From an uncultured Actinomycetes bacterium (GTDB lineage: Bacteria; Actinomycetota; Acidimicrobiia; Acidimicrobiales; RAAP-2): 34,171 nucleotides of DNA. Positions 15,223 to 34,171 of this stretch are shown here, piece by piece; within the stretch, counting starts at the first letter, position 1, and each line of letters begins with the position of its first letter. The DNA is taken from assembly GCA_903870905.1 (NCBI GenBank), contig CAIQEU010000050.1, positions 1 through 34,171 of the forward strand, written 5' to 3'. The position numbers and the translations under genes are program-made. Under the pieces are notes generated by a model. It saw only the letters and a list, made by a program, of their open reading frames with translations. It was not told where the DNA came from and made no database searches.

Positions 15223-15237
15223 CACCACATTCGCCAC

Positions 15238-16890: not shown

Positions 16891-16916
16891 GCAGCACCCC
16901 AGTCGGAGACTGACCC

Positions 16917-16954: not shown

Positions 16955-16964
16955 CTGTGTCTGT

Positions 16965-17708: not shown

Positions 17709-17758
17709 GTCACCAGCGGGTCGTTCGCGCAGGTCCCCAGTGCACCCACAGTCCCTCG

Positions 17759-17764
17759 TAGGAT
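17759..17764 (+). promoter_or_regulatory. -10 box (TAGGAT), leaderless acetyltransferase gene
   Basis: TAGGAT ends 6 nt before GTG 17771 and no ribosome binding site is present. Confidence 0.45.
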
Positions 17765-17770
17765 TGCAGT

Positions 17771-18694: not shown

Positions 18695-18717
18695 CGCCGG
18701 CCGAGCCGGCTGCCCAC

Positions 18718-20468: not shown

Positions 20469-20475
20469 GCTGTGC

Positions 20476-20481
20476 AGACTA
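20476..20481 (-). promoter_or_regulatory. -10 box (TAGTCT), leaderless carboxylase operon
   Basis: TAGTCT on the minus strand ends 7 nt before ATG 20468. It separates the carboxylase operon from the ccr-epimerase operon upstream on the same strand. Confidence 0.5.
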
Positions 20482-20537
20482 CAAGAGCAGGGAGGAACCC
20501 TCGCCTCGCTGCTCGCCCACCGAAGCCGCCGTGATCC

Positions 20538-20948: not shown

Positions 20949-20959
20949 GTCGTTTCCTC

Positions 20960-22300
20960 TCAGGCGCCGTGTCGACGGAAGATGGTGAGGCGGTCCTCGC
21001 CGACCTGAGCGCGCAGCTCAGGGTTCGTGATCCCAAGTCCTGGGGCAGGAGCGGCACAGAGCACGCCGATCTTGCCCTCATGGAGGTTGTGGTGCACCTG
21101 GTAGGCAGCGTCACCGACGGTGGCCAAGGTCTCAACCGCAGACAGCGGTGGCACGATCTTGCCTTCGCAGATGAGCTGGTTGGCCGCCCACGCTTCTCGG
21201 TAGTTGGCGAAGTGGGAGCCAATGATGGACTTGAGCTTCATCCAGAGGTGGCGGTTGTCGTACTCGATCATGTAGCCAGACGTCGCAGCACAGGTCACGA
21301 TCTTTCCGGCCCGCTTGGTCACGAACACACTGGCGCCCATGGTGGAGCGACCGGGGTGCTCGAAGACCATGTCGACGTCGTCACCGACGAGGGCACGGAT
21401 GTCCTTGCCCAGTCGACGCCACTCCGACTCATCCTGGGTGTGCTCGTCCTTCCAGAACTTGTAGCCCTTCTCTCGACGATCGATGACGTGCTCCACGCCG
21501 AGGTCGTGCATGAGGGCCACCTTCTCTGGGCTCGACACGACGGCCACAGGGGTTCCCCCTCCGTTCAGCACGTACTGCACGCCGTAGGAGCCAATGCCGC
21601 CCGATGCACCCCAGACGAGCACCTTGTCACCTTGGGTCATGTGGCCGGCGTTCGGGGAGACGACCATGCGGTACGCCGTCGAGTTGCACAGCGCGTTCAC
21701 CGCTGCTTCTTCCCACGTCAGATGCGTGGGCTTCGGCATCAACTGGTTGGCCTTCACCACCGAGATATCGGCGAGACCGCCGAAATTGGTCTCAAAGCCC
21801 CAGATGCGCTGGTTGGCGGCGAGCATGGAGTCGTTGTGGGCCGAGGGGTCTTGGTCATCGACGTAGTTGCAGTGGACGGTGACTTGGTCCCCAACCTTCC
21901 AGTTGCGAACCGCTGAGCCCGTGCGGAGCACGACGCCCGAGGCATCGGAGCCGACCACGTGGTAGTCGAGAGCGTGGCGCTTGCCCCAGATGCTCTCCTT
22001 GCCGAGCCGGTCGAGGAAGCCGAACGTCGACAGCGGCTCGAAGATCGAGGTCCACACGGTGTTGAAGTTGATCGACGAGGCCATGACGGCGATGTAGCAC
22101 TCATCGGGTGCCAGTTCAGGAATCGCCACCTCGCCAACGTGCAGGCTCAAGCGGGGATCCTTCTCTTCGCTGGCAAGTCCAGCGAACATGTCCTGCTCAG
22201 AACGCAGCACGAATGCTGCACGGGTGGACTCCGGCATGGGGAGCGCTGCGAGCTCGTCGCCCGACGCCCCAGCCGCTGCGGCCTCAAGGATGGTGGTCAT
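20960..22300 (-). CDS. ccr: Crotonyl-CoA carboxylase/reductase
   Basis: The 446-residue medium-chain dehydrogenase-type enzyme reductively carboxylates crotonyl-CoA to ethylmalonyl-CoA with NADPH and CO2. The CO2-binding residues known from the Kitasatospora enzyme (Asn81, Phe170, Glu171, His365) correspond to Asn80, Phe169, Glu170 and His363 here, in SSINFNTVW, IWGFETNFGG and IIGSHFANY. This separates it from plain crotonyl-CoA reductases. The nucleotide motif is WGASGGIGSYG (230-240). ATG 22300 lies 7 nt after a TAGGGT box, so the TTG 6 bases upstream is not used. It is the key enzyme of the ethylmalonyl-CoA pathway. Confidence 0.97.
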   Translation of the reverse strand: MTTILEAAAAGASGDELAALPMPESTRAAFVLRSEQDMFAGLASEEKDPRLSLHVGEVAIPELAPDECYIAVMASSINFNTVWTSIFEPLSTFGFLDRLGKESIWGKRHALDYHVVGSDASGVVLRTGSAVRNWKVGDQVTVHCNYVDDQDPSAHNDSMLAANQRIWGFETNFGGLADISVVKANQLMPKPTHLTWEEAAVNALCNSTAYRMVVSPNAGHMTQGDKVLVWGASGGIGSYGVQYVLNGGGTPVAVVSSPEKVALMHDLGVEHVIDRREKGYKFWKDEHTQDESEWRRLGKDIRALVGDDVDMVFEHPGRSTMGASVFVTKRAGKIVTCAATSGYMIEYDNRHLWMKLKSIIGSHFANYREAWAANQLICEGKIVPPLSAVETLATVGDAAYQVHHNLHEGKIGVLCAAPAPGLGITNPELRAQVGEDRLTIFRRHGA

Positions 22301-22307
22301 GGCCAAA

Positions 22308-22313
22308 ACCCTA
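22308..22313 (-). promoter_or_regulatory. -10 box (TAGGGT), leaderless ccr operon
   Basis: TAGGGT on the minus strand ends 7 nt before ATG 22300. The thiolase promoter faces away from it about 45 bp further on, so both could answer to a shared regulator in 22301-22391. Confidence 0.5.
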
Positions 22314-22357
22314 GCGTTGGCGACCTGGCCGTGAGCGAGGGTGGATCAGGAGTGTCC

Positions 22358-22363
22358 TAGGCT
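22358..22363 (+). promoter_or_regulatory. -10 box (TAGGCT) of the thiolase gene
   Basis: TAGGCT lies 28 nt before ATG 22392. The short leader includes a strong AAGGAGG ribosome binding site at 22380-22386. Confidence 0.45.
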
Positions 22364-22391
22364 CTGAGCCGTTCCATAGAAGGAGGACCTC

Positions 22392-23573
22392 ATGGCCGGA
22401 ACCGTCATCGTCGCAGGTGCTCGCACCCCCATTGGCAAGCTGTCTGGCGCACTCGCCAGTTTCTCAGCTGCAGAGCTCGGTGGCTTCGCCATCGCCGAGG
22501 CGCTGAAGCGCGCCGGGATCACCGGTGACCAGGTCGACATGGTCATCATGGGCCACGTCATCGAGGCTGGAGCTGGTCAGATCACTGCCCGCCAAGCAGC
22601 CATTGCCGGTGGCATCCCGATGTCAGTTCCCGCCACCACCATCAACAAGGTCTGCCTCTCGGGCCTCAACGCCATCTACCTCGCCGACCTCATGATCAAC
22701 GCCGGCGAAGCCGACATCGTGGTCGCCGGCGGCATGGAGTCCATGACCAACGCCCCGTACCTGCTCCCCGGCGCTCGTGCTGGCTACCGAATCGGCGACA
22801 ACTCGGTGATCGACTCGATGATGTACGACGGGCTCACCTGTGCATTCGACGACTGCGCCATGGGCCTCGCCACCGATCGCTACAACCAGAAACTCGGCGT
22901 CACCCGTGAGCGCCAAGACCAATTCGCCGCTGCCAGCCACGCCAAGGCCGCAGCCGCCATTGCCGCTGGGAAGATGGCCGAGGAGATTGTTCCCGTGTCG
23001 GTGCCCCAGCGCAAGGGTGACCCGAAGATTGTGGACACCGACGAAGGCGTCCGCGCCGACACCACCTTCGACTCCCTCCAGGGCCTCCGCCCCGCCTTCG
23101 ACAAGGAGGGCACCATCACCGCTGGGAACGCCAGCCAGATCTCCGATGGTGGCGCAGCCGTCATCGTGATGTCCAAGGCCAAGGCTCAAGAACTCGGCAT
23201 CGCTCCCCTCGGCGAGCTCCTCGGATTCGGCGAAGTCGCTGGTCCCGATGCGTCGCTGCTCACCCAGCCCTCCCGTGCGATTCAGAAGGCGCTGGCCAAG
23301 GCGAACCTGACGGCCGCCGACATCGACCTGTTCGAAATGAACGAGGCCTTCGCCGCCGTTGGTTTGGCGTCGGCTGACGAGCTCGGCATCGACGAGGCCA
23401 AGGTCAACGTCAACGGTGGCGCCATCGCCCTCGGTCACCCGCTCGGCATGTCGGGAACCCGCGTGGCCCTCACCGCCCTCTACGAGCTGAAGCGTCGTGG
23501 CGGCGGCACGGCTGCGGTTGCGCTCTGCGGCGGTGGTGGCCAAGGCGACGCGGCGATCTTCCGCAGCCTCTAA
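22392..23573 (+). CDS. Acetyl-CoA C-acetyltransferase (thiolase)
   Basis: The 393-residue enzyme condenses two acetyl-CoA to acetoacetyl-CoA. The nucleophile Cys is in NKVCLSGLNAIYLA, the second active-site group in NEAFAAVGLA, and the C-terminal His and Cys in GGAIALGHPLGMSGTR and ALCGGGGQGDAA. This is the biosynthetic AtoB/PhaA type by length and motifs. It is divergent from ccr and would supply the C4 unit that the 3-hydroxybutyryl-CoA dehydrogenase and a crotonase turn into crotonyl-CoA. It has the best Shine-Dalgarno in the window and a strong terminator. Confidence 0.96.
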   Translation: MAGTVIVAGARTPIGKLSGALASFSAAELGGFAIAEALKRAGITGDQVDMVIMGHVIEAGAGQITARQAAIAGGIPMSVPATTINKVCLSGLNAIYLADLMINAGEADIVVAGGMESMTNAPYLLPGARAGYRIGDNSVIDSMMYDGLTCAFDDCAMGLATDRYNQKLGVTRERQDQFAAASHAKAAAAIAAGKMAEEIVPVSVPQRKGDPKIVDTDEGVRADTTFDSLQGLRPAFDKEGTITAGNASQISDGGAAVIVMSKAKAQELGIAPLGELLGFGEVAGPDASLLTQPSRAIQKALAKANLTAADIDLFEMNEAFAAVGLASADELGIDEAKVNVNGGAIALGHPLGMSGTRVALTALYELKRRGGGTAAVALCGGGGQGDAAIFRSL

Positions 23574-23592
23574 GCATCGAGCACCTCTGCTG

Positions 23593-23621
23593 GAGAACCC
23601 CCGCCGATGGCGGGGGTTCTC
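23593..23621 (+). terminator. Bidirectional terminator hairpin
   Basis: GAGAACCCCCGCC (23593-23605) pairs perfectly with 23609-23621 around a GAT loop, a 13-bp stem between the convergent thiolase and sixA genes. In the minus direction the arm ends in AGAACCCC-type sequence and no long U-tract is present on either side. Confidence 0.75.
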
Positions 23622-23633
23622 TGCGTTGGCGAC

Positions 23634-24152
23634 CTACTTCTTGGATTTGCCCCGAATGAACGCGACGAGGCGACCAGTCCCGGGAACAATCTCGCTGACC
23701 ACGTCAGCAGGGAACTCCACGATGGCCAAGGAGCAGACGGGAGTCTCACGCTCAGAGCGATACTTCTCCTTGAGGAGATCCTCTCGCAGGAGGCCGAGGT
23801 AGGGCTCATGCCCACACAGCAGCAGAGAACTCGTGTGGGGGTAGCCCGTCATGAGGTACCGCAGGCCATCGACGTCTGCGGTGTAGATCGTGTCGCTGTA
23901 CTCAATGCGTGGCCGTAGGCCACTGGCCGACACCACGGTCTGGAGGGTCTGCTGGCACCGCAGTGCCGTTGAGCACACCACGAGCTCGGGGAACTGCACG
24001 TCGTCGAGGACCGTTGGCGATGCGTCGATCCATTCACCGAGTGCCGTGGCCTGGCGAAGGCCCTTCTTCGTGAGTGGGCGGGACTTGTCCTCGGGGCCGC
24101 CTTGGTCGTCCTTGGTTGCCTTGGCATGTCGGAGCATCCAAATCGTCGCCAT
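23634..24152 (-). CDS. sixA: SixA-like phosphohistidine phosphatase
   Basis: The 172-residue histidine-phosphatase-superfamily protein has the RHG-type motif near the start as WMLRHAKATKDD, with SRPLTKKGLRQA after it, VVCSTALRCQQT, and the second catalytic His in LLCGHEPYLG. The short length and R-H-A-K motif point to the SixA group, which removes phosphate from phosphohistidine in signalling or phosphotransfer proteins. The target here is unknown. ATG 24152 has a GGAGG ribosome binding site. It is divergent from uppP. Confidence 0.9.
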   Translation of the reverse strand: MATIWMLRHAKATKDDQGGPEDKSRPLTKKGLRQATALGEWIDASPTVLDDVQFPELVVCSTALRCQQTLQTVVSASGLRPRIEYSDTIYTADVDGLRYLMTGYPHTSSLLLCGHEPYLGLLREDLLKEKYRSERETPVCSLAIVEFPADVVSEIVPGTGRLVAFIRGKSKK

Positions 24153-24205
24153 CGCTCCTCCGTTCTCATTCCGTCATCGAGCACTCGTGTGCTGTCATTC
24201 TCCCC

Positions 24206-24211
24206 TAGCCT
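24206..24211 (+). promoter_or_regulatory. -10 box (TAGCCT) of uppP
   Basis: TAGCCT lies 28 nt before GTG 24240, and the leader carries a GGAGGA ribosome binding site. Confidence 0.4.
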
Positions 24212-24239
24212 ACGGAGCGCCACACATTGGAGGAACCAC

Positions 24240-25133
24240 GTGTACTTGAGCGCCGTAGCGAACCACCTGACCTACGTCCAAGCCATCATCTTGGGAGTAC
24301 TCCAAGGCGTTACCGAGCTCTTCCCCGTCTCCTCCCTCGGCCACTCCGTGATCCTGCCCCAAATCTTCGGATGGACTGGCATCGTCGATGCCGAGTCCTC
24401 GCAGAGCACGTCGAATTTCCTCACCTTCTTGGTTGGACTCCACGTCGGCACGGCACTTGCGCTCATCGTCTTCTACTGGCGTGACTGGGGTCGCATCATC
24501 GCCGGACTGTGGTCCTCAACCAAAGCTCGAAAAGTCTCGACCTCCGCCGAGCACCTGGCCTGGCTCATCATCGTTGGCTCCGTTCCCGTTGGCATCGCCG
24601 GACTGGTCTTGGAGAAGCACCTGCGCTCGATCTTCGCCAAGCCCACGTGGGCTGCAGCGTTCCTCATGTTGAACGGCATCGTCTTGTTCATTGGCGAGCG
24701 AGTCCGCACCTCGCAGAAGGCTCGCCACGGACGGAGTTCGCGACGGTCGATGACGCTCAAATCTCTGTCGTATCGAGATGGCTTCATCGTGGGCGCCAGT
24801 CAAATTCTGGCGCTCTTCGCCGGATTCTCCCGATCGGGTGTGTCGATCGTCACCGGCCTCATCCGAGGACTCAACCACGACGACGCTGCGAAGTTCTCGT
24901 TCTTGCTGGCGACGCCCATCATCTTGGCGGCGGGGCTCTACAAGTTGCCGACGCTCTTCACGAGCTCCGGCAAGGAGATCCTCGGCCAGGTGGTCGTGGG
25001 AGCCATTGCCGCAGCCATCGCTGCCTACTTCTCGGTTCGGTTCCTCTCGAAGTGGTTCACCACGAAGACCCTGCTCCCCTTCGCCATCTACTGCGTGGGT
25101 GCGGGGGCAATCTTCATGGCCCTCGTCATCTGA
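24240..25133 (+). CDS. uppP: Undecaprenyl-diphosphate phosphatase
   Basis: The 297-residue integral membrane enzyme dephosphorylates undecaprenyl diphosphate to recycle the lipid carrier of peptidoglycan synthesis. Both family motifs are present: GVTELFPVSSLGHSVI (about residues 23-38) with the catalytic Glu and the S-x-G-H element, and GFSRSGVSIVTGL with the catalytic Arg. Seven to eight hydrophobic segments follow the BacA/UppP pattern. GTG 24240 has a GGAGGA site 5 nt upstream; longer in-frame extensions overlap the promoter. It is convergent with recR, with 8 nt between. Confidence 0.96.
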   Translation: MYLSAVANHLTYVQAIILGVLQGVTELFPVSSLGHSVILPQIFGWTGIVDAESSQSTSNFLTFLVGLHVGTALALIVFYWRDWGRIIAGLWSSTKARKVSTSAEHLAWLIIVGSVPVGIAGLVLEKHLRSIFAKPTWAAAFLMLNGIVLFIGERVRTSQKARHGRSSRRSMTLKSLSYRDGFIVGASQILALFAGFSRSGVSIVTGLIRGLNHDDAAKFSFLLATPIILAAGLYKLPTLFTSSGKEILGQVVVGAIAAAIAAYFSVRFLSKWFTTKTLLPFAIYCVGAGAIFMALVI

Positions 25134-25141
25134 GGATGACG

Positions 25142-25744
25142 TCAGGCCTCTAAGTCCCGACGACCTTCGAGGGCACGACCGAGCGTCATCTCATCGGCGT
25201 ACTCGAGGTCACCACCAACGGGAACCCCAGCGGCGATCTTCGTGACCTTGGCCACCTTCGGACGGAGCAGGCGAGAGAGGTAGAGCGCAGTGGTGTCGCC
25301 TTCAACGTTGGGGTTCGTGCAGAGGATGACCTCGGTAACGACGCCGTCTTGGACGCGAGCTTCGAGCTCTGCGATCTTCAACTGCTCCGGTCCAATTCCC
25401 TCCAAGGGACTGAGACCACCGTGGAGGACGTGGTAGCGACCAGCGAAGCTCCCTGATCGCTCCACCACCATCAGGTCTCTCGGGTCTTGCACCACGCAGA
25501 TCACCGATGGGTCGCGCCGGTCATCGGCACAGATCGGGCAGAGTTGTCCGCCCTCGGCAACAGAGCAGCAAATGGGGCAGAACGTCGTGCGCTCCTTCAT
25601 CTCTCGGATGGCACTCGAGAGTCGCTCGGCTTCGTCTCGAGGGGTCCGCAATAAGAAGAACGCCAGACGAGCCGCATTCTTCGGGCCAATGCCGGGAAGA
25701 CGGGCGAATTCGTCGATGAGGTTGCGCAGTGGTCCTGGATACAC
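25142..25744 (-). CDS. recR: Recombination protein RecR
   Basis: The 200-residue protein has all RecR parts: a helix-hairpin-helix (LPGIGPKNAARLAFFLL), a four-Cys zinc finger (Cys56, 59, 69, 72 in CPICC and CPIC), a Toprim domain (SVICVVQDPRDLMVVERSG, then VILCTNPNVEGDTTALYL), and a C-terminal GVPVGGDLEYADEMTLGRAL with the Walker-B-like element. It acts with RecO to load RecA on gapped DNA. Its GTG start is only 2 nt after the dnaX stop, so it is translationally coupled. The ybaB gene often found between these two is absent. Confidence 0.97.
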   Translation of the reverse strand: MYPGPLRNLIDEFARLPGIGPKNAARLAFFLLRTPRDEAERLSSAIREMKERTTFCPICCSVAEGGQLCPICADDRRDPSVICVVQDPRDLMVVERSGSFAGRYHVLHGGLSPLEGIGPEQLKIAELEARVQDGVVTEVILCTNPNVEGDTTALYLSRLLRPKVAKVTKIAAGVPVGGDLEYADEMTLGRALEGRRDLEA

Positions 25745-25746
25745 CG

Positions 25747-27630
25747 TTACTTCGTCTCCGCACCGGGGAAGAACTCTTGGATGAGGTGCTCGGCGATCGT
25801 CGCATGGTCACTGAGCTTCACCGAGCCCTCAGCCATCTCCTTGAAGGCTTGGACGTCATCCAACCCCGCTGGCGTATCCTTGGGAGTACAGACCTCTACG
25901 GAAGCAGGTGGATCCTCCGGATCACTGATACACGTGATCTGAAGTCGTTGGCCAATGCTCGCTTCGAGTGCGTCAACCATTGCTGGAACGCATTCCCTTG
26001 CCCGCAGTGCATGGGACTCGTTCGGAAGCACGAAGGTGGCCTGTCCCCCCTCGAGCGTGGTGAAGTTTCCAATCGCCAAGATGGCTTTCGGTCGAGCGGG
26101 CAACGTTCGGTGAATAGTCTCCCACGTTGAGCGCAGTGCCTCGAGAGTGAGCACCTGGTCAGCGCCAGCTGGGTGGCTGAGCGGTGCGGCCTCTGGAACG
26201 GCAGTGCTCACGACGTCTGGTGTTGGCGTCGATGGAGTGATGACCGGCGAAGTGGCCTCGGGAACTGCTTCTTGGGCCTTGGACCGACGGAGTGCTCCAA
26301 GGGTCGGCTTCGTTGCCGGTGAGGTCGCCGCCAGTGCTTCAGGTTGATCTGTCGGCGTCGGTGCAGGAGCACTCCGCTGAGCGGCGTCGTAGGCAGCACT
26401 GACCGCAGCGGCAGCGGCCGACGATGTGGCCCTTGGTTGGGGCTGCACCGGCGGAGCATCGACGGCGCGCGGCGCTGGTGCTCCCCCATCACGAAGCCGA
26501 GCTTCGACGTGGGCCAGTCGCTCTGATAACGCTGCCGGGCTGTCGTCTAAATCAATCCGAGCGGAGCGGACGAGCGCCAACTCCAAGACGACATGAGGTT
26601 CTGGCGCATCGCGCATCTGCACCTGTGCCCGCCCGATGGCCTCCATCGTTCGAACGATGCGGGCGAGACCAATCTCGCTCGCTTGCTTGCGTACTCGCTC
26701 AGCTTCGGCACCAGTGTGCTCGCTGAGGGAGGGAGCCAGGAGGGCCAAGAACCCTTGGCGGAGTTCAGCGACGATCTCGCTGGCGAGCTGCTGAGGGCCC
26801 CAGCCGTTCTCATGGAGTTCGGCGAGGGCCACCAAGATCCCCTGGGCATCGCTCTCCAAGATTCCGGTGATGACGCCGGTGAGATCGGCGGAAACCGACT
26901 CGGCAGAACCAGCCGCGGCGACCTGGTCGAGTGCCGAGAGTGCATCTCGTGCTGAACCCTTGGCTCGACGCACCACCGCCTCGAGGGAGGCGTCGTCGAC
27001 GCTCAACCCAGCCGAGGTCCGAACGTCCGAGAGCAACGAGGCCAGGGTGTCAGCAGCGAGGAGGCGGAACTCCAGGTGCTGGGTTCGGCTCCGAATGGTG
27101 GCCGGTACCTTCTGCGGGTCGGTGGTGGCCAGCACGAACACCACGTGGTTCGGGGGCTCCTCCAATGTCTTGAGTAGCGCGTTGGCCGCGGCGTTGGAGA
27201 GCATGTGGACTTCGTCGACGATGTAGACGCGCCGGCGTCCCGGGGTGCCGAGACTGGCGTGAGCAACGAGGTCACGCATGGCGTCGACACCGTTGTTCGA
27301 GGCCGCGTCGAGCTCAGTGACGTCGAGCGAGGTGCCTTTGGTGATCTCAATACAGCTCTGGCACACACCGCACGGCTCGCCATCAATGGGACTCGCACAG
27401 TTGAGTGCCTTGGCCAAGATACGAGCGGTCGAGGTCTTGCCGGTGCCACGCGGCCCGGAGAAGAGGTAGGCGTGGCCGACCTTGCCATCGGCAACGGCCC
27501 GGCGAAGGGCCATGACCACGTGGGGCTGGCCACGAAGGGCTCCAAAGGTTCCCGGCCGGTAGCGGCGGTACAGCGACACGAAGGAATCGTCGCCCTCGAG
27601 CACTGTTGGTGGTGTCGCGTCCTCAGCCAT
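25747..27630 (-). CDS. dnaX: DNA polymerase III subunit gamma/tau
   Basis: The 627-residue clamp-loader ATPase has Walker A GPRGTGKT (59-66), a zinc module with Cys78, 87, 90 and 93, Walker B VYIVDEVHML (135-144), the sensor 1 region ATTDPQK and the SRT arginine finger at 181-183. Domain III runs to about residue 375. An Ala/Pro/Thr-rich linker (about 385-500) leads to a C-terminal tau-type domain. No A-rich slippery sequence for a gamma frameshift is seen in the linker. ATG 27630 lies 6 nt after a TAGGCT box next to the SRP RNA gene. It forms an operon with recR. Confidence 0.97.
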   Translation of the reverse strand: MAEDATPPTVLEGDDSFVSLYRRYRPGTFGALRGQPHVVMALRRAVADGKVGHAYLFSGPRGTGKTSTARILAKALNCASPIDGEPCGVCQSCIEITKGTSLDVTELDAASNNGVDAMRDLVAHASLGTPGRRRVYIVDEVHMLSNAAANALLKTLEEPPNHVVFVLATTDPQKVPATIRSRTQHLEFRLLAADTLASLLSDVRTSAGLSVDDASLEAVVRRAKGSARDALSALDQVAAAGSAESVSADLTGVITGILESDAQGILVALAELHENGWGPQQLASEIVAELRQGFLALLAPSLSEHTGAEAERVRKQASEIGLARIVRTMEAIGRAQVQMRDAPEPHVVLELALVRSARIDLDDSPAALSERLAHVEARLRDGGAPAPRAVDAPPVQPQPRATSSAAAAAVSAAYDAAQRSAPAPTPTDQPEALAATSPATKPTLGALRRSKAQEAVPEATSPVITPSTPTPDVVSTAVPEAAPLSHPAGADQVLTLEALRSTWETIHRTLPARPKAILAIGNFTTLEGGQATFVLPNESHALRARECVPAMVDALEASIGQRLQITCISDPEDPPASVEVCTPKDTPAGLDDVQAFKEMAEGSVKLSDHATIAEHLIQEFFPGAETK

Positions 27631-27636
27631 GGTGTG

Positions 27637-27642
27637 AGCCTA
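27637..27642 (-). promoter_or_regulatory. -10 box (TAGGCT), leaderless dnaX-recR operon
   Basis: TAGGCT on the minus strand ends 6 nt before ATG 27630. It sits directly downstream of the SRP RNA gene on the same strand. Confidence 0.45.
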
Positions 27643-27669
27643 CCGGTGGGTGGTGCCACGACGAAGGGT

Positions 27670-27805
27670 TCGTCGACGTCCGGTGCGGCGGCCAGGCGAT
27701 CTGCGGCACACGGCGGCTCCCGCTGAGAGCTGCTGCCTTCCGACCCTGACTCGGTTCACGTGATGCCGTTGCGCAGGACCCAGCCACCGCACCCGACGTC
27801 GACGA
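27670..27805 (-). ncRNA. ffs: Signal recognition particle RNA (4.5S/SRP RNA) with long basal helix
   Basis: On the minus strand the conserved core reads GGGTCCTGCGCAACGG, TGAACCGAGTCAGGGTCGG, AAGGCAGCAG and then CCGTGTGCCGCAG. These are the symmetric and asymmetric loops and the GGAA tetraloop that bind Ffh. The ends close in a perfect 13-bp helix (27778-27790 with 27685-27697). Three more pairs, one mismatch and 11 further pairs (27795-27805 with 27670-27680) extend it. A TACGAT box at 27810-27815 predicts transcription from about 27803, so the extension should be in the RNA. The RNA targets ribosomes making membrane proteins. An SRP RNA gene next to dnaX is a known gene order. Confidence 0.92.
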
Positions 27806-27809
27806 CCTG

Positions 27810-27815
27810 ATCGTA
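27810..27815 (-). promoter_or_regulatory. -10 box (TACGAT) of the SRP RNA gene
   Basis: TACGAT on the minus strand is followed about 7 nt later by the 5' strand of the long SRP helix. TCGGCA at 27838-27833 is a possible -35 element at 17-nt spacing. It also contributes to an imperfectly palindromic TCGGCA/TGCCGA pair at 27817-27839. Confidence 0.45.
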
Positions 27816-27853
27816 CTCGGCATCGCTCTCGGTGCCGACCGGTCGGTTGTCAC

Positions 27854-28141
27854 TTACCCCGCAACGTGGACCGTGAGCGTGACGACGTCACCGAGGTGAA
27901 CGCCCTCTGCGTGACGGACCATTTGTTTGATCGGCACCAGGTAAGCGCCGTCTTTGGGCATGAGGGAGGTGGTCCACGTTGTGGCTCCGATGGTCACCTC
28001 GGCTGGGATGCAGCCCCAGCCATAGGAGAGTTCGGTCACGAACTCGGCCAGCGTCGCTGAGTCCTCCACGCTGAAGGCTACGAAGGTGAACGGCGCCGGT
28101 CCCCTCCACTCGAACATCGGACCGTGCACTGCAATCTCCAT
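27854..28141 (-). CDS. DUF1905-family small protein
   Basis: The 95-residue product is a compact beta-barrel-like protein of the DUF1905 family. It has FEWRGPAPFTFVAF near the start, GWGCIPAEVTIGATTWTTSL in the middle, and GAYLVPIKQMVRHAEGVHLGDVVTLTV at the end, which is the family signature order. The molecular role of this family is not established. ATG 28141 is placed by a TACAGT box 7 nt upstream; an in-frame codon 9 bases earlier would overlap that spacer. It is transcribed toward the SRP RNA and dnaX genes. Confidence 0.88.
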   Translation of the reverse strand: MEIAVHGPMFEWRGPAPFTFVAFSVEDSATLAEFVTELSYGWGCIPAEVTIGATTWTTSLMPKDGAYLVPIKQMVRHAEGVHLGDVVTLTVHVAG

Positions 28142-28148
28142 GAGCGCC

Positions 28149-28154
28149 ACTGTA
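28149..28154 (-). promoter_or_regulatory. -10 box (TACAGT), leaderless DUF1905 gene
   Basis: TACAGT on the minus strand ends 7 nt before ATG 28141. A perfect 7-bp inverted repeat CGAGGCG/CGCCTCG at 28167-28186 lies just upstream and could be an operator. Confidence 0.45.
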
Positions 28155-28211
28155 GGTTTCTGACAGCGAGGCGAACTGACGCCTCGTTGCAGACCACCCG
28201 GCGCGGCGAAG

Positions 28212-28217
28212 TAGCCT
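28212..28217 (+). promoter_or_regulatory. Probable -10 box (TAGCCT) of tRNA-Ser
   Basis: TAGCCT lies 43 nt before the tRNA 5' end. TTGCAG at 28187-28192 is a possible -35 element at 19-nt spacing. The tRNA would need RNase P cleavage of a leader of about 36 nt. Confidence 0.35.
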
Positions 28218-28260
28218 GTCGGTTCGGAGTTCTGCTCAGCCTCGTCGAGTAGCTCACCGT

Positions 28261-28348
28261 GGAGACGTGCGAGAGCGGCCGAATCGGCACGATTGGAAAT
28301 CGTGTGTGGGGAAACTCACCGTGGGTTCAAATCCCACCGTCTCCGCCA
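28261..28348 (+). tRNA. tRNA-Ser (anticodon GGA)
   Basis: The acceptor stem pairs GGAGACG (28261-28267) with CGTCTCC (28338-28344), followed by discriminator G and an encoded CCA (28346-28348). The anticodon loop TTGGAAA carries GGA at 28295-28297 between CACGA and TCGTG. A long variable arm with GTGTGGGGAAACTCAC and the T-arm GTGGGTTCAAATCCCAC are typical of class II tRNA-Ser. It decodes UCC and UCU. Confidence 0.97.
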
Positions 28349-28357
28349 AAGAGGTGC

Positions 28358-28378
28358 CCCTCCCTCTAGGAGGGAGGG
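28358..28378 (+). terminator. Hairpin shared by tRNA-Ser and the convergent esterase gene
   Basis: CCCTCCCT (28358-28365) pairs perfectly with AGGGAGGG (28371-28378) around CTAGG. The loop contains the TAG stop codon of the esterase gene on the minus strand (28366-28368), so the structure straddles the end of that gene and follows the tRNA by 9 nt. Confidence 0.6.
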
Positions 28379-29526
28379 AGCATCGCCTCGAGCGCGGTCG
28401 CCGCCTCCCGGCCAATGACTCGCTCCCCAACGTTGCTCAGGTGCACCCACGGCGACACTCGGGGAAGTCCAGCGCTGTCGACGAGCGCCACGTGGTTGAG
28501 CGAAGCCGCCAAGGCTGCATCAGCGCCTCGGACCTCGGCGTCGCTGGCCGCCTCGGCGTCGCACCCTTGCGGCAGGCACTGGTTCGCAGTGCGCTGCACG
28601 GCGATGTCGAGTGCTGAGGATTCCTCCAAGAGCACGAGGGGGAGCTCCGACCCGAAGGTTTGGCGGAGTCCAGCGGTGAAGGCGCTGAGGTCACGGCTGT
28701 AGTTCGGCGCCAGGTTTGGATCGAGAGCGTCGGACTCGCCTTGGAAGAACACCACGCCTCCGAGGACCGGCACGATTCCCCGCTCGATGAGGACGTGCTC
28801 GGCCGCACCCACCTGTCCGATGAGTGTCGGGAAGAGCCCCTGTGGCCGTGTCGGGAGCCACGCCGCAATGGTGGACCCGGGGTAGGTCACCTTCACGATC
28901 GTGAGGCGGAGGTGGCGATCAGCCATCAACCCACGAGCGAGTCCGATCTCTGGACCGAAGACCTGCTGGACGCCGAGCGGGGTCGCCATGCGTTGCGGGG
29001 TATCGAGGCCAGCGAATCCGGTTCCGAAGTGTGCAGCCGGTCCAAACTTCCAGAGCTCAATCCCATCCTTGGTATCGGCGGCGTTCGTGAAGGGGGAAGC
29101 GAAGGTCGACACCTTCGTGATGGGGTCAACGGCGTAGGACGCCTCGCCGGTGGCGTTGGACTGGCCAGCGACCACCACGACGAGTTCCGGGGTCACCACC
29201 GCCGAGGGGAGGGAGGTCACGCGACTGCCCGATGGTGCCGTCGCGGTCACGACGAATCGCTCGAGTCGAAGCGTTTGCATCGCTGCGGTGCAGGTGCGCT
29301 TCCCGAGCGCTGCACACGTCGGACCAGGTGGCGATGCGGTGACGGCGTAGGTCGTCGATGCCGTGGCCCACGGAGGAGGCGTCCACGAGAGCACCACCCC
29401 ACTCGGCACCGCTCGAGCCGAGAGGTTCGTTGGAGCAGCGAGTTGCGGAGGGGTCGCCCCGGCCGAACGGAGGGAGAGGAGGGGCCCGAGGAGTGCGACG
29501 ACGACCAGCAGGCGACCACGAGCCAT
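28366..29526 (-). CDS. Secreted fibronectin-III / SGNH-type carbohydrate esterase
   Basis: The 386-residue protein has a signal peptide (LLVVVALLGPLLSL, cleavage near SAGA-TPP), an Fn3-like domain at about 26-113 (PTNLSARAVPSGVVLSWTPPP), then a sialate O-acetylesterase/CE6-type domain. That domain starts with VVVVAGQSNATG (Ser123 nucleophile), has GGVVFFQGESDAL (block with Gly/Glu), and ends with WVHLSNVGERVIG, where the His would complete the triad. Such enzymes remove O-acetyl groups from glycans outside the cell. A pair of Cys at 71 and 79 may form a disulphide. ATG 29526 gives the signal peptide; a TAGGCT box lies 5 nt upstream. Confidence 0.85.
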   Translation of the reverse strand: MARGRLLVVVALLGPLLSLRSAGATPPQLAAPTNLSARAVPSGVVLSWTPPPWATASTTYAVTASPPGPTCAALGKRTCTAAMQTLRLERFVVTATAPSGSRVTSLPSAVVTPELVVVVAGQSNATGEASYAVDPITKVSTFASPFTNAADTKDGIELWKFGPAAHFGTGFAGLDTPQRMATPLGVQQVFGPEIGLARGLMADRHLRLTIVKVTYPGSTIAAWLPTRPQGLFPTLIGQVGAAEHVLIERGIVPVLGGVVFFQGESDALDPNLAPNYSRDLSAFTAGLRQTFGSELPLVLLEESSALDIAVQRTANQCLPQGCDAEAASDAEVRGADAALAASLNHVALVDSAGLPRVSPWVHLSNVGERVIGREAATALEAMLPPS

Positions 29527-29531
29527 ACCGC

Positions 29532-29537
29532 AGCCTA
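29532..29537 (-). promoter_or_regulatory. -10 box (TAGGCT) of the secreted esterase gene
   Basis: TAGGCT on the minus strand ends 5 nt before ATG 29526, slightly closer than in the other leaderless genes. Confidence 0.4.
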
Positions 29538-29579
29538 CGCAGTGGCGAGGGATGTGCCGAAGTCGCCACGCCATCTCAG

Positions 29580-29585
29580 TAGCGT
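29580..29585 (+). promoter_or_regulatory. -10 box (TAGCGT) of tadA
   Basis: TAGCGT ends 6 nt before ATG 29592. The spacer reads GGAGGC, which looks like a ribosome binding site but would lie upstream of the transcription start. Confidence 0.4.
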
Positions 29586-29591
29586 GGAGGC

Positions 29592-30044
29592 ATGGACGAC
29601 CTCGCAGCGATGGACCTCGCCCTCGACGCAGCGAACCTCGCTCGTGCCCACGGCGACGTCCCCGTTGGCGCGGTAGTGCTCTGCGGTGACCAAGTCATCG
29701 GCACCGGCGAGAACCGCCGTGAGCTCGACGGAGACCCCACGGCGCACGCCGAAATCGTGGCGATCCGAGCAGCCACGGCCGCTCTGGGATCGTGGCGCCT
29801 CGAGGACTGCACCTTGGTCGTCACCTTGGAGCCGTGTGTGATGTGTGCAGGCGCCATCCTCGCCGCCCGCATCCCCGTAGTGGTGATCGGCGCCGATGAT
29901 CCAAAGGCAGGGGCGATGGGTTCGCTCTACCACGTAGGTGACGATCCTCGCCTCAACCATCGAGTCGCCCTTCGCACCGGCGTTGCCGCCGAGGCCTGCA
30001 GCGAACTGCTCACCTCGTTCTTCGCCACCAAACGTCAGGGTTAG
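29592..30044 (+). CDS. tadA: tRNA-specific adenosine deaminase
   Basis: The 150-residue enzyme deaminates A34 to inosine in tRNA-Arg(ACG). The zinc site is complete: His52 with the proton-shuttling Glu54 in DPTAHAEIVAIR, and Cys82 and Cys85 in TLEPCVMCAGAI. VPVGAVVLCGDQVIGTGENRRE and ADDPKAGAMGSLYHV are also typical of TadA rather than of cytidine or guanine deaminases. The stop codon overlaps the stop of the convergent small membrane protein gene in a shared TTAG. Confidence 0.95.
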   Translation: MDDLAAMDLALDAANLARAHGDVPVGAVVLCGDQVIGTGENRRELDGDPTAHAEIVAIRAATAALGSWRLEDCTLVVTLEPCVMCAGAILAARIPVVVIGADDPKAGAMGSLYHVGDDPRLNHRVALRTGVAAEACSELLTSFFATKRQG

Positions 30045-30256
30045 TGGCGCGGGTAGTTCGATCCGCTACCACCGGATCGAGCGATACGCCACGTCGCAGC
30101 GGCGAAGCCGAGTGAGATCACTGCGAGGACGCAGTGAACCACCCGAAACCCCAGCCCATGGGTGTGGTCATGGACCATGTTCCACAGCAGCACCGCCCAG
30201 ACCCACAGCGCCCACAGCGCGGAGAGACGGAGGACCAGTCGTGCGGTTCTCGACAC
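30041..30256 (-). CDS. SCO4848-like small membrane protein
   Basis: The product of about 71 residues has two TM segments: LSALWALWVWAVLLWNMV and, after a His-rich loop (HDHTHG), VVHCVLAVISLGFAAATW, ending in WRIAR. Layout and motifs match the actinobacterial SCO4848 family, whose function is unknown. The start is uncertain: an AGGAGG sequence at 30266-30261 favours GTG 30256 (4-nt spacing) over ATG 30259 (1 nt) or ATG 30271, which lies inside the site. It is the last gene before the lower-GC islet. Confidence 0.7.
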   Translation of the reverse strand: MSRTARLVLRLSALWALWVWAVLLWNMVHDHTHGLGFRVVHCVLAVISLGFAAATWRIARSGGSGSNYPRH

Positions 30257-30301
30257 CATTCCTCCTCTCATCGGGCTCCTCTTCAGAGCGTATCGGGTGC
30301 C

Positions 30302-30325
30302 CCTGATGCCTCACGTCAAACCCTC
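30302..30325 (+). repeat. Direct repeat, left copy (24 bp)
   Basis: The bases CCTGATGCCTCACGTCAAA at 30302-30320, then C and CCTC, recur at 34031-34054 in the same orientation with a single mismatch (C30321/T34050). The two copies bracket the lower-GC segment with four genes. It may be an attachment site or an extragenic repeat. Confidence 0.75.
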
Positions 30326-30367
30326 AGCAGTCCCCTGTTCCTCGCCGCCGTGCCATACGGCGAGCCG

Positions 30368-30373
30368 TAATCT
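30368..30373 (+). promoter_or_regulatory. -10 box (TAATCT) of the TPR protein gene
   Basis: TAATCT lies 30 nt before ATG 30404, and AGGAAG precedes the start as ribosome binding site. A 6-bp hairpin CGCCGT/ACGGCG at 30346-30362 stands just upstream of the box. The rest of 30257-30403 holds the left direct repeat and no gene. Confidence 0.45.
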
Positions 30374-30403
30374 TTCTTCAGTTCAATCCGCACAGGAAGC
30401 ACC

Positions 30404-31714
30404 ATGGCTAAAGCTCGCCCAGTAGATCTCTATGGCCTCCAACTCAGCACGTCTCAAGACGCAGCTGAGCTTTATAACGACGCACTCGGTCGACTACTCC
30501 GGTTGGAGTCCGACCCGGAGGAACCACTACTTCGCGCCATTGCCGTAGACCCAGAGTTTGCCCTTGGATATGCAGCGCTTGCGGTCCTCAGTCATGAATT
30601 TGGGATTGATGACCACACTGCGCACTATCTCAACCAAGCGAACACGCTCCTCGGCAACACCTCAACTCGCGAGCGTGCATTCATTGCCGCCTATGAACGC
30701 CGAGTTGCCGGGGACTACTCGACACTGCTCTCCTATCTCCTCGACCATCCACGTGACGTCCTTGGCGTGAGTATTGCGATACCAACCATTGCGTTCTCCG
30801 GTGCCTACGACGTCGCCGACGATGCGTGGGTGGCGCTTGAGCAGATGGCCTCGCACTTCCAACACGACTGGTGGTATGACGGCATGCTCGCCTTTGCTCG
30901 CCAAGATCAAGGTCGAATGGCGGAAGCTCGAGACTTGGCGGAACGCTCGTTGACTGCCGAGCCTCGAGGTGGCAATGCCGCCCACGCGGCGGCGCATGTC
31001 TACTTAGAGACCGGTGAACACGAGTTGGGTCTTCGCTGGATTGATGACTGGATTGCCTCAGCTGGACAAGATGCCGCGCATCGATGTCACTTCTCGTGGC
31101 ATGCAGCTCTCTATGAACTCAGCCTCGATGACGTTGACAGCGTCGCACGCCGGTATGACCGTGAGCTTGATCCACGCATCGTGACCGGTCCACGTGCCCT
31201 CATTGATACCGCGTCGCTGCTGTTTCGAGGCCATGTCGAAGACTTCACGATTGCTTCGGCCGACCCAATGGCCGTCCTCGAGGCATCGGGCGTTGACCTC
31301 ACGCGTCCCGAAACCCCATTCATGGCCTTTCACTGTGGCCTTGGACTCGCCCTCACCCGGGACATTGCTCGTCTCGAGGAGCTGCGCAACACCTTGGGTG
31401 CAGCTACTGCATCACCGGTCAATTCGACCCTCAAGGACTTCATTGGCGCCCTCATTGCCTACTGCCAAGGAGATGATGACACCGCAGCTGATCTGCTGCT
31501 CGGCCTCCATCACCACCTCACCCCAATTGGCGGAAGCTACGCCCAGCGCAGTGTGGCCATTGACCTCGCCATCTCGTCACTGTGTCGAGCAGGTCGTGGA
31601 ACCGAAGCGGTTGCACTCCTCGAGGCACGCCTTGCACGAAGATCACGACCTCGAGATGAAGTCTTGCTCCGCCGAGCTCGAAATTCCCCCACGGATGCTT
31701 CGCCGCAGGTGTAG
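30404..31714 (+). CDS. TTC38-like tetratricopeptide-repeat protein
   Basis: The 436-residue soluble protein is all-helical with TPR-like pairs: EPLLRAIAVDPEFALGYAAL, WWYDGMLAFARQDQGRMAEA with LAERSLTAEPRGGNAAHAAA, and HVYLETGEHELGLRWIDDWI, followed by HFSWHAALYELSLDDVDSVA. The order Y-D-G-M-L-A-F-A, A-A-H-V-Y-L-E-T and F-S-W-H-A-A-L-Y is characteristic of the TTC38 family, which is found in bacteria and animals and has no settled function. Base use is visibly less GC-rich than in genes left of 30260. It is convergent with the transporter gene, with 4 nt between stops. Confidence 0.85.
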   Translation: MAKARPVDLYGLQLSTSQDAAELYNDALGRLLRLESDPEEPLLRAIAVDPEFALGYAALAVLSHEFGIDDHTAHYLNQANTLLGNTSTRERAFIAAYERRVAGDYSTLLSYLLDHPRDVLGVSIAIPTIAFSGAYDVADDAWVALEQMASHFQHDWWYDGMLAFARQDQGRMAEARDLAERSLTAEPRGGNAAHAAAHVYLETGEHELGLRWIDDWIASAGQDAAHRCHFSWHAALYELSLDDVDSVARRYDRELDPRIVTGPRALIDTASLLFRGHVEDFTIASADPMAVLEASGVDLTRPETPFMAFHCGLGLALTRDIARLEELRNTLGAATASPVNSTLKDFIGALIAYCQGDDDTAADLLLGLHHHLTPIGGSYAQRSVAIDLAISSLCRAGRGTEAVALLEARLARRSRPRDEVLLRRARNSPTDASPQV

Positions 31715-31718
31715 CGGT

Positions 31719-32441
31719 TTAACCAACGAGCGCAAAGAGCGCTTTGCCAAGCGCAACGGTGGCCACAAGGCCAATCGTGACCTCGGTCGTTGTTCGCGCT
31801 GAGGTTGCACTCATGAACCGACGGGCAAATCGACCAAGCAGGGTCCCCATCACAATGCAGCTGAACGCGGCCAGGAGCCAGATTGCCGAGACACTTGGTA
31901 GTCGGAGAAACGGCAGGCTGGCCAAATTCAGCAAGGCAAAGCAGGTCTGCAAGGTTCTGACGTAGTCGCCGTCTCTAAGGTCCAAGTGAATGAGATAGGA
32001 CGCGAGCGGCGGACCGCCGACGCCTCCGTAGGAATTCACCGTCCCACTCCAAAAAGCAGCCAACGTCGCACCAACCCCCTTGCCACTTGGCTTCCACCAA
32101 AGAAGAACACCGAGTGAGGAAAGCGACGATGCGGCCACCACAACGGGGCGCCACTGTTCTCCCATGAGCGACGAGAGCACGAGTCCGAGACACACGCCAC
32201 TAATGAGTCCCGGCAAGAGGCGCTTCACCAAGTTCCACTTGATCGCTCCCTCCACTCGCCAGAGCATGAGGGAGTTTTGACTGAGCGCCAACAGATTCAC
32301 GAGCCCGATGGCGCCTGCACCTGGGATGGCTTGTGTCAGCACCGGTGCCGCAATAAGCGAGAAGCCCACACCACTCATGCCCTGCACGAACGCTGAGGCC
32401 ACCAGTGCGACCGCGACGATCGCGGTGAAGTGAATCGTCAC
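31719..32441 (-). CDS. TauE/SafE-family (TSUP) membrane transporter
   Basis: The 240-residue polytopic protein has about seven to eight hydrophobic segments. It shows the inverted-repeat signatures of the sulfite exporter TauE family: SAFVQGMSGVGFSLIAAPVL near the N-terminus and FWSGTVNSYGGVGGPPLASY in the second half. Family members export sulfite or other small sulfur- or organo-anions, and the substrate here is unknown. GTG 32441 gives MTIHFTAIVAVALV; the upstream extension overlaps the thioesterase gene and is not credible. It starts 19 nt after that gene, so the two share an operon. Confidence 0.85.
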   Translation of the reverse strand: MTIHFTAIVAVALVASAFVQGMSGVGFSLIAAPVLTQAIPGAGAIGLVNLLALSQNSLMLWRVEGAIKWNLVKRLLPGLISGVCLGLVLSSLMGEQWRPVVVAASSLSSLGVLLWWKPSGKGVGATLAAFWSGTVNSYGGVGGPPLASYLIHLDLRDGDYVRTLQTCFALLNLASLPFLRLPSVSAIWLLAAFSCIVMGTLLGRFARRFMSATSARTTTEVTIGLVATVALGKALFALVG

Positions 32442-32460
32442 GCGGGTAAGACTTCGTGGC

Positions 32461-33267
32461 CTAGGCCACGTCTCCGGGCCACATCTTGATCGATAGGGAC
32501 TGGCTCGCAGTTGCGAGCAGTGTTCCTGACTCAGACCACATGAAGGCGGTTCCTTGGGCATAGCCACCAACGAGCGCATGCATGCGAATGTCGAGGAGCA
32601 CCCACTCAGTTGGTTCCAACTGCACAATGCGAATGGTGTTGTCGAGACTGCGGCCCATGATGCGGCGACCAAGTGGTTGCGCAACTGCCCCGGAGAGAAA
32701 TTCACCGAATACGGCCAACGTGCCAGCTGAAGGCTCTTGGTGGCCAGGCACCCGACACCAAAGCGCTGAGTTGGCTGACCCCAAGGTGCCATCTAACTGC
32801 TCAAAGGTGCGACCAATCGCCACGCGGGTCTCGACGAGCGAGAACACCGAGCGCTGAACTTCAACCGGAATGCGTCGAAGGGGGCAGTCTTGCGGCTTTG
32901 ACACCACCGGCATGTGTTCCCACACCCCGCCAAGTTCAAGCTCTGAAGTGCCAAGCGCAGCATTGACGGTCAAGATCTCGTTGTCGCCAACACGACCCAC
33001 CGCGCGCCCTTGGGTCACTCGCCCACCTTGAGCAGCCAAGGTGACTTCCAAGTCCAAGGTTGATGTTGTTTTCGCATGACTCAAGTACTGAGCCGTTGCC
33101 CAAATCGTTGGCCGACCCGAAGCTTCTTCCAAGGCAACGACTGCGGCACCAAGTCCGCAGCCACCAAAGAGGAAGTTTCCTGGGGTCACCAAGTGTTCTC
33201 CAACGGGCAGCGTCCAGTGGAAGTCATCCTCGCCGCGTTCTAAGCCCATAAACGTCTTTGCATCCAT
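32461..33267 (-). CDS. Double-hotdog acyl-CoA thioesterase-like protein
   Basis: The 268-residue product resembles the TesB-like double-hotdog families. The N-terminal half has GNFLFGGCGLGAAVVALEEA (the hot-dog helix with the G-G-C-G pattern) and TAQYLSHAKTTSTLDLEVTL. The C-terminal half has VFGEFLSGAVAQPLGRR and LDNTIRIVQLEPTEWVLLDI. Catalytic residues cannot be assigned with confidence. The third codon of the longer frame (ATG 33267) is chosen because a TACCGT box lies 7 nt before it. It stands 33 nt after the SGNH hydrolase gene and directly before the transporter gene. Confidence 0.8.
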   Translation of the reverse strand: MDAKTFMGLERGEDDFHWTLPVGEHLVTPGNFLFGGCGLGAAVVALEEASGRPTIWATAQYLSHAKTTSTLDLEVTLAAQGGRVTQGRAVGRVGDNEILTVNAALGTSELELGGVWEHMPVVSKPQDCPLRRIPVEVQRSVFSLVETRVAIGRTFEQLDGTLGSANSALWCRVPGHQEPSAGTLAVFGEFLSGAVAQPLGRRIMGRSLDNTIRIVQLEPTEWVLLDIRMHALVGGYAQGTAFMWSESGTLLATASQSLSIKMWPGDVA

Positions 33268-33274
33268 GGGCACA

Positions 33275-33280
33275 ACGGTA
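33275..33280 (-). promoter_or_regulatory. -10 box (TACCGT), leaderless thioesterase-transporter operon
   Basis: TACCGT on the minus strand ends 7 nt before ATG 33267. It shows that the islet genes use the same leaderless signal as the host genes. Confidence 0.5.
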
Positions 33281-33300
33281 ATCGGGCTACTGATGCCCCT

Positions 33301-33918
33301 TTAGCGGGCGGCGGCGACCGCCAGAAGTCCGGCGTAGGCCCGAGCACCTGCGCCATCAATCACCATGTGGATGCCATCGCTGTAGAACCAACCAGGATAC
33401 GGAGTCGAATACTTATCCCAGTCAGCAATTACGACATTTTTAAACCGAAGTGTTGCCGACTTCATAGAGCGGTTGTTATTGATCATGTAGGCGTAGCGAG
33501 CAGTCTTTGGACCGTGATTGGTGGCAAGGATTACCTTTCGGGCTCCAGCTAAGCGATTCATTGCCTCGTTCACCATGGGGTTGGTGATCGTGCCGTTCGT
33601 GCCAAGGGCAATGATGACCACTTGGCCGAGTTGACGATGTGCTCGAAGTTGCGCCAAGAGTCCAGACGGTCCAAGCAGCGAACTGAACTGCTGACTGGTC
33701 TGGGAAAAAATCAGCGCGTTTGGAATGCGTCGCTTGAGTGCAGGGGCGATATCAATCATCACCGAGTCGCCAATGGCGGTGACAATGTCTGGTCGAAGTG
33801 CCGGCGGTGCGACCACATGCGCGCTGCGGCTCGTTGCCGCTCCAGCGCCTGAGGCCAGCAGAACGGAGACCGCGACGGCAGAGAGGGTGAGCCCAACTCT
33901 GCTGCGAATCATTCCCAT
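33301..33918 (-). CDS. Secreted SGNH hydrolase
   Basis: The 205-residue protein has a signal peptide (IRSRVGLTLSAVAVSVLL, cleavage near GAGA-ATS) and a compact SGNH domain. Block I is VTAIGDSVMIDIAPAL with the Ser nucleophile, block III is VVIIALGTNGTI with the Asn, and block V is FYSDGIHMVIDGAGARAYAG with Asp and His. It resembles the SGNH domains attached to OafA-type acyltransferases, but stands alone. A role in adding or removing acyl groups on surface glycans is inference. ATG 33918 has a GGGAAGG ribosome binding site 7 nt upstream; ATG 33912 is the alternative. Base composition is the most AT-rich of the window. Confidence 0.82.
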   Translation of the reverse strand: MGMIRSRVGLTLSAVAVSVLLASGAGAATSRSAHVVAPPALRPDIVTAIGDSVMIDIAPALKRRIPNALIFSQTSQQFSSLLGPSGLLAQLRAHRQLGQVVIIALGTNGTITNPMVNEAMNRLAGARKVILATNHGPKTARYAYMINNNRSMKSATLRFKNVVIADWDKYSTPYPGWFYSDGIHMVIDGAGARAYAGLLAVAAAR

Positions 33919-34030
33919 TTCGCGGCCTTCCCTCAAGACTTGACCCAGCAAGTTCCACTCTTCCATAACCAAACAAATCATGAGTGGCATCTCGGCCAGA
34001 TTCCTGAGAGATTTCCCGACCTCGCTGCAT

Positions 34031-34054
34031 CCTGATGCCTCACGTCAAATCCTC
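34031..34054 (+). repeat. Direct repeat, right copy (24 bp)
   Basis: This copy matches 30302-30325 in 23 of 24 positions. It overlaps the last codons and stop of the partial gene at the window edge, whereas the left copy lies between genes. Confidence 0.75.
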
Positions 34055-34171
34055 CGCGAACGCTGATTCGTTGCCTCACCAAGAATCTCCGGATGAGGGT
34101 TTGCGTTGAATGACCGGTTCACCTTCACGGGCGGCTTGGTTTTCGGCTTGAAGGCATTGAGGTGCTCCAGC
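34045..34171 (-). CDS. 3' end of an unrecognised gene (partial)
   Basis: The minus strand is open from the window edge to a TGA at 34047-34045. It gives a 41-residue C-terminus that is basic and rich in Lys, Pro and Asn: LEHLNAFKPKTKPPVKVN, then FNANPHPEILGEATNQ and RSRRI. I recognise no family. Its coding status rests only on the open frame and plausible codon use. The final codons fall within the right direct repeat. Confidence 0.4.
   Translation of the reverse strand, partial: LEHLNAFKPKTKPPVKVNRSFNANPHPEILGEATNQRSRRI

Follow-up and report, generated by a model that had tools for sequence, protein, structure and literature searches.

A chromosome segment of apparent sister-species origin beside an insertion sequence in a freshwater actinobacterium

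How did four genes in DNA of unusual composition come to lie between two nearly identical 24-bp direct repeats? The question is raised by a 34,171-nucleotide stretch of DNA (the window), which is the whole of contig C50 (CAIQEU010000050.1) in G000, the 2.10-Mb draft metagenome-assembled genome (MAG), in 81 contigs, of an uncultured freshwater actinobacterium. A preliminary description of the window had proposed that the segment entered by site-specific recombination, with the repeats as attachment sites. We compared the window with five draft genomes of the genus, namely G000 and its four congeners G001 to G004, of which G001 represents a different species (its TadA is 58% identical to that of G000). 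The segment appears, from this comparison, to be a recent acquisition from a sister-species chromosome, and it was very probably captured at an insertion sequence (IS) in the spacer between tadA and tRNA-Ser(CGA).

Origin of the four-gene segment

The segment and its genes are as follows.

30335-34030, no strand: segment of apparent donor-chromosome origin, 3,696 bp, 98.6-98.7% identical to G001
30404-31714, plus strand: tetratricopeptide repeat (TPR) protein, 436 aa, 99.3% identical in G001
31719-32441, minus strand: TauE/SafE-type membrane protein (PF01925), 240 aa, 99.2% identical in G001
32461-33267, minus strand: double-hotdog acyl-CoA thioesterase (PF20789), 268 aa, 97.8% identical to G004 and 82.3% to the copy on contig C43 of G000
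33301-33990, minus strand: secreted SGNH-like protein, longest open reading frame (ORF); the true start may be near 33915

All four genes named in the preliminary description were found. The TauE and thioesterase assignments were supported by profile scores of 68.2 bits (PF01925) and 52.4 bits (PF20789), while all three Pfam TPR hits of the TPR gene were under the curated cut-off. No relevant Pfam or NCBIfam model matched the fourth protein, and 'SGNH' is a reading of its sequence; in its 206-aa reading it was 99.5% identical in G001 and 47% identical to the C43 copy.

The identity to G001 was made up of two matches, 2437 of 2468 bases (30335-32802) and 1358 of 1377 bases (32660-34036), on two G001 contigs that overlap by 143 bases. 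As a control, the ten longest matches of window positions 10001-30000 with the four congeners were 66-80% identical; matches above 81% in this interval were all shorter than 100 bases, and those of 98% sit on a tRNA. Two signs of a recent interspecies transfer were therefore present, an identity of 98.6-98.7% against a background of 66-80%, and native paralogues on C43, where the thioesterase and SGNH genes of G000's own locus show 82% and 47% identity to the islet copies. Between the islet and G001, 36 codons differed silently and 9 by amino acid (the thioesterase being counted in two overlapping parts). With so few amino-acid differences relative to silent ones, the genes are intact and look constrained.

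In G001, the segment is located between tRNA-Ile and tRNA-Ala. The gene order thioesterase, SGNH, membrane gene and SulP was present in all five genus genomes, spread over no more than two contigs in any of them (in G003 the thioesterase and SGNH genes are split over two contigs). This locus was accompanied by tRNA-Ile in four of the five genomes (not G002) and by tRNA-Ala also in four (not on G000's C43, whose contig stops earlier). The fetched loci of G002, G003, G004 and C43 yielded neither TPR nor TauE, and a whole-genome search with the TPR protein matched one of the four congeners and nothing else in G000. A tyrosine integrase gene adjoins tRNA-Ile in G001 (L043:1509-2907), on the opposite side from the islet genes, and this tRNA-Ile may be a used integration site. 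As a mover of the segment, this integrase (G001 contig C121) was rejected, being on the 3' side of tRNA-Ile and outside the segment shared with the window.

The lower GC content noted in the preliminary description was borne out by a GC profile, with 0.583 for positions 30336-34030 versus 0.641 for 1-30301. Steps of 1 kb within the segment ranged from 0.564 to 0.602, and the lowest step elsewhere in the window was 0.603 (25001-26000). The fetched stretches of G001-G004 had GC contents of 0.525-0.582, mostly 0.56-0.58, and G000 outside the islet and its adjoining IS had 0.604-0.651 (window 1-30301 0.641, contig C2 0.650, end of contig C14 0.651). Because of this composition, the G001/G004-like thioesterase and the native paralogue in G000, we infer that the transfer probably ran from a G001-like donor into G000.

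The repeat pair at the segment borders

The direct repeats were present as described, with 23 of 24 bases identical between 30302-30325 and 34031-34054 (25 of 27 when extended), and no match at up to 3 mismatches occurred in any of 100 dinucleotide shuffles of the window. At the same threshold, the 24-mer was found at three places in G000, two in the window and one at the first base of C2. The C2 copy is the same DNA as the right window copy, because the window's final 141 bases (34031-34171) are identical to those that open C2, as with overlapping assembler contigs. The features at the two borders are:

30302-30320, plus strand: solo left tip of an IS designated IS-1, CCTGATGCCTCACGTCAAA, 19 bp, identical to 34031-34049
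30317-30334, plus strand: tip of a second IS, IS-2 (IS3 family), overlapping the IS-1 tip by CAAA
34031-34171, minus strand: IS-1 left end and 3' end of its transposase gene; 141-base identity with C2; rve domain (PF00665) 37.2 bits, cut-off 32.6

The right repeat copy is the left end of IS-1. IS-1 corresponds to C2:1-1378 (1,378 bp, limits set by the terminal bases), its outer 13 bases being CCTGATGCCTCAC on the left and CGAGTTGACTCAC on the right, and on C2 it carries a transposase gene of 417 aa with an rve domain. A gene does end within the right copy, as the preliminary description had it; this gene is IS-1's own transposase. The transposase shares the rve domain and weak similarity with the IS481 and IS3 families, but it scored far under their curated cut-offs (NF033577 for IS481, 34.3 of 224 bits; IS3, 23.8 of 160 bits). 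Of 81 genomes of the family, 23 (counting G000) contained a relative of it; relatives also turned up on 280 plasmid records, where 279 of the matches were less than 60% identical. A second IS-1 copy in G000 is shown by two right flanks, on C2 and C14, which share 134 bases of IS-1, with one base differing inside IS-1 and everything beyond its end. C2 begins exactly at IS-1 base 1, and another left flank of IS-1 therefore probably lies outside the binned contigs.

In the left repeat copy, the tip of IS-1 is fused to that of IS-2, the two sharing 4 (at most 9) bp. After base 19 it reads CCCTCAGCAGTCCC, which together with CAAA is the terminus of IS-2, a second dispersed element; a variant IS-1 end in G002 reads CAAACCCTC, and with this variant the overlap of the tips is up to 9 bases instead of 4. 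The 18-base IS-2 tip pattern (at up to 2 mismatches) occurred at four places in G000, two in G001, four in G002 and none in G003 or G004, and a reversed control of the pattern found no places. In G000, one of the four is in the window and one on C33, and the other two face each other at the ends of a short remnant on C43. On G002 contig C224, the IS-2 end leads into an OrfA/OrfB pair, and this OrfB passes the curated cut-off of the IS3 family (NF033516, 278.6 bits, cut-off 160). The C43 remnant (L048; C43:4251-4302) is about 52 bp long and consists of two facing IS-2 tips without an interior, one of which breaks at nearly the same base as the window's IS-2 tip.

The first 19 bases of IS-1 were found at 12 places in the five genomes at up to 2 mismatches (two of these, C50:34031 and C2:1, being one place counted twice through the contig overlap), and 11 of the 12 continue into an IS-1-type end, the sole exception being window position 30302. 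The match reaches 24 bases because the tips of IS-1 and IS-2 happen to be alike beyond base 19. A dispersed repeat was what the preliminary description had itself named as speaking against its proposal, and in the sense that the repeat is a dispersed IS terminus, this is what we found. Its statement that the segment holds no integrase was upheld, as profile scans of the four segment proteins gave no match to an integrase family. Among nearby proteins, TadA, a SASA-domain protein and the NERD helicase on C2 were not integrases either; window 1-28300, the rest of C2 and C14 lay outside this annotation. In G001, neither IS-1 nor IS-2 was found at the islet borders in the bases inspected, and the 24-bp repeat does not border the islet there. 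Site-specific integration at 24-bp attachment repeats, despite the direct repeats, the foreign composition and a right copy at a gene end, is scarcely credible, since the repeat is an IS end whose match past base 19 belongs to IS-2, the four proteins are without an integrase match, the repeat is missing from the islet borders in G001, and no IS-1-independent copy of the 24-mer was seen at an empty site.

Insertion site and route of capture

The native flank of the segment comprises the following features.

28261-28348, plus strand: tRNA-Ser(GGA) (ARAGORN), also upstream of tadA in G001 and G004
29592-30044, plus strand: tadA, tRNA adenosine deaminase (NF008113, 156.8 bits, cut-off 150)
30041-30271, minus strand: small membrane-protein ORF, membrane character judged by eye; its DNA matches the region after tadA in G001-G004
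30297-30301, no strand: GTGCC, left copy of a candidate target duplication, matching TGCC/GTGCC after the IS-1 right end on C14

After tadA, all four congeners have tRNA-Ser(CGA) and then an aminotransferase gene. The conserved order, which appears to be interrupted by the insertion in G000, runs tadA, small membrane gene, tRNA-Ser(CGA), aminotransferase. The distance between tadA and tRNA-Ser(CGA) was 351 bp in G002 and G003, 914 bp in G004 and 1,338 bp in G001, where the spacer holds other small genes. The preliminary description's view of the segment as foreign was supported; G002 and G003 have a short uninterrupted spacer here, and the spacers of G001 and G004 are too short for the islet. 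The empty-site comparison proposed in the preliminary description gave this short uninterrupted spacer in two of four congeners; the exact site was not seen base by base. Since this spacer (L059, L060) contains additional ORFs in two congeners (G001, G004) and is short in the other two, it may be an insertion hotspot.

In G000, tRNA-Ser(CGA) and the aminotransferase gene are on C14, near a contig end that consists of the IS-1 right end followed by TGCCAAATT; they lie directly behind this IS-1 end. Because of the gene order in four of four congeners and the TGCC match, C14 is probably the right neighbour of the islet's IS-1. The same two observations led us to set C2 aside in this role; the NERD-helicase gene of C2 is on other contigs than tadA in G001 and G004, which in draft genomes is weak evidence. 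The candidate duplication would be TGCC (4 bp), or one base longer (GTGCC, 5 bp) if IS-1 stops a base sooner; the 4-bp form is favored, since all four genus-level right ends inspected (C2, C14, L056 and L093) have G as the last base of IS-1.

Among the routes considered, homology-facilitated illegitimate recombination is the most likely, and we propose it tentatively. The relevant passages of PMC3240628 describe this process as one in which one side is homologous and the other is joined without homology. G000 would already have carried IS-1 in the tadA-tRNA-Ser(CGA) spacer before the event. Linear donor DNA would have come in with the IS-2 tip, the islet and IS-1; one homologous crossover would have taken place in IS-1, common to donor and recipient, and the other end would have been joined to the recipient's IS-1 tip through 4-9 bp of microhomology. 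The outcome would be exactly one extra short IS-1 tip as a direct repeat, and to the right of the islet's IS-1 one would expect TGCCAAATTGCC, then tRNA-Ser(CGA). If the recipient had IS-1 in the spacer, this route would account in one step for the unequal borders, with a whole IS-1 to the right and a bare tip to the left. The right border has IS-1 (the second IS-1 copy of G000 being seen through the C2 and C14 flanks), and the overlap at the left junction is 4-9 bp. As in the process described in PMC3240628, foreign DNA would have been added without an integrase; here, however, the homologous anchor would be an IS, the recipient is a draft MAG and DNA uptake is putative. The segment would not be mobile by itself.

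Several observations weigh against this reconstruction. Both break points are within 20 bp of an IS tip, which is not predicted by microhomology joining alone and hints at IS-end processing. The GC content of G000 is not uniform, with 0.604 for C14:1-12000, 0.61 for C43 and 0.628 for C33. Around the point of insertion, the alignment of the G002 and G003 spacers to the joined flanks of G000 is poor. The link between C50 and C14 is not assembled in this draft MAG, in which IS-1 is repeated and the contig overlap connects C50 with C2. Finally, the candidate target duplication has a length of only 4-5 bp, and among six IS-1-type relatives a duplication was present in one, the other five having none of 4-6 bp.

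The main rival to homology-facilitated recombination is a decayed composite transposon or cointegrate, which we regard as possible but less likely. Two full IS-1 copies in direct orientation would have flanked the segment on arrival, and the DNA between about base 19 of the left copy and the IS-2 tip would have been lost afterwards, with the solo tip as what remained. As in composite transposons, the cargo lies between directly oriented IS ends; a candidate 4-5-bp duplication stands at the outer borders (the right border being taken from C14), and deletions that leave tips behind seem to occur in G000, to judge from the two-tip IS-2 remnant on C43. This path takes more steps than homology-facilitated recombination, but common ones. 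However, it requires two donor IS-1 copies, transposition and deletion, and G001 is without IS-1 at either islet border. The right end of a left IS-1 was not seen at 30302-30340. In place of a second flanking IS copy, the left border has only a tip of 19-24 bp, its 19-bp IS-1 part fused to the tip of another IS, and a second such solo tip is absent from the five genus genomes.

It is doubtful that the tip, the four genes and IS-1 (about 5.1 kb) were transposed between species as a unit, with the 19-24-bp tip as a working left end. The tip and the right end of IS-1 are correctly inverted relative to each other; with C14 as the right flank, they would bracket an insertion with the candidate 4-5-bp duplication. 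On the other hand, no second solo tip was found at up to 2 mismatches in the five genomes, and the second GCCTCAC-type module of a full IS-1 end, a putative binding site, is missing after the solo tip. In ISEcp1-type one-ended capture, one complete IS stands beside captured chromosomal genes. The window likewise has one complete IS adjoining chromosomal genes, but its distal end repeats 19 bp of the IS's own tip without a mismatch and is not a degenerate surrogate, and mobility as a unit is putative.

An assembly or library chimera of G000 and a G001-like organism in one sample is improbable. G000 is a draft MAG in which IS-1 is repeated and contigs end in IS-1, and, as the right neighbour is assigned indirectly, the right border gives no argument against a chimera. 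The left junction, however, is inside one 34-kb contig with tadA to its left and shares only 4-9 bp, which would be too little for a de Bruijn join at the usual k, and the islet differs from G001 by 1.3-1.4%. A phage vehicle was also considered and rejected, as the viral contigs scanned contained neither an exact match to the 19-bp tip nor a TPR relative.

Gene content and meaning of the transfer

The preliminary description had also suggested an acyl-transfer or export function for the three minus-strand genes, and this grouping was not supported. In all five genus genomes, the thioesterase gene is paired with the SGNH gene on the chromosome, while TauE pairs with the TPR gene. A tail-to-tail TPR-TauE pair was present in all four GTDB loci returned by a TPR scan (60-99% TPR identity; one of them is G001), and the fetched DNA of three of these loci gave no thioesterase match. 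All three minus-strand genes occurred together only in the window and in G001. In a TPR-TauE locus of another actinobacterial MAG (L123:2055-2160; 76% TPR and 85% TauE identity), the stretch immediately upstream of TauE reads KLWPGDVA, with which the thioesterase protein ends, as if a thioesterase gene had once been there.

Through the transfer, G000 gained second, divergent copies of the thioesterase and SGNH genes, plus a TPR gene that has no other match in G000. A literature search yielded background only, and no paper among those listed dealt with this element. The event is a recent, ordinary horizontal transfer with unusually readable borders and not a new kind of mobile element. The case shows how two insertion-sequence tips can pass for an attachment-site repeat pair. 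If the tip, the genes and IS-1 did move as a unit, a stray IS-1 tip would make the neighbouring chromosome into cargo, which would be a simple rule for how chromosome pieces become mobile, and fusions of IS tips, such as that of IS-1 with IS-2 and the two-tip remnant on C43, would be a recurrent source of new mobile units. For a genus known here from draft metagenome genomes, the segment is a well-resolved instance of interspecies gene flow, in which the donor clade, the borders and the native paralogue are all visible.

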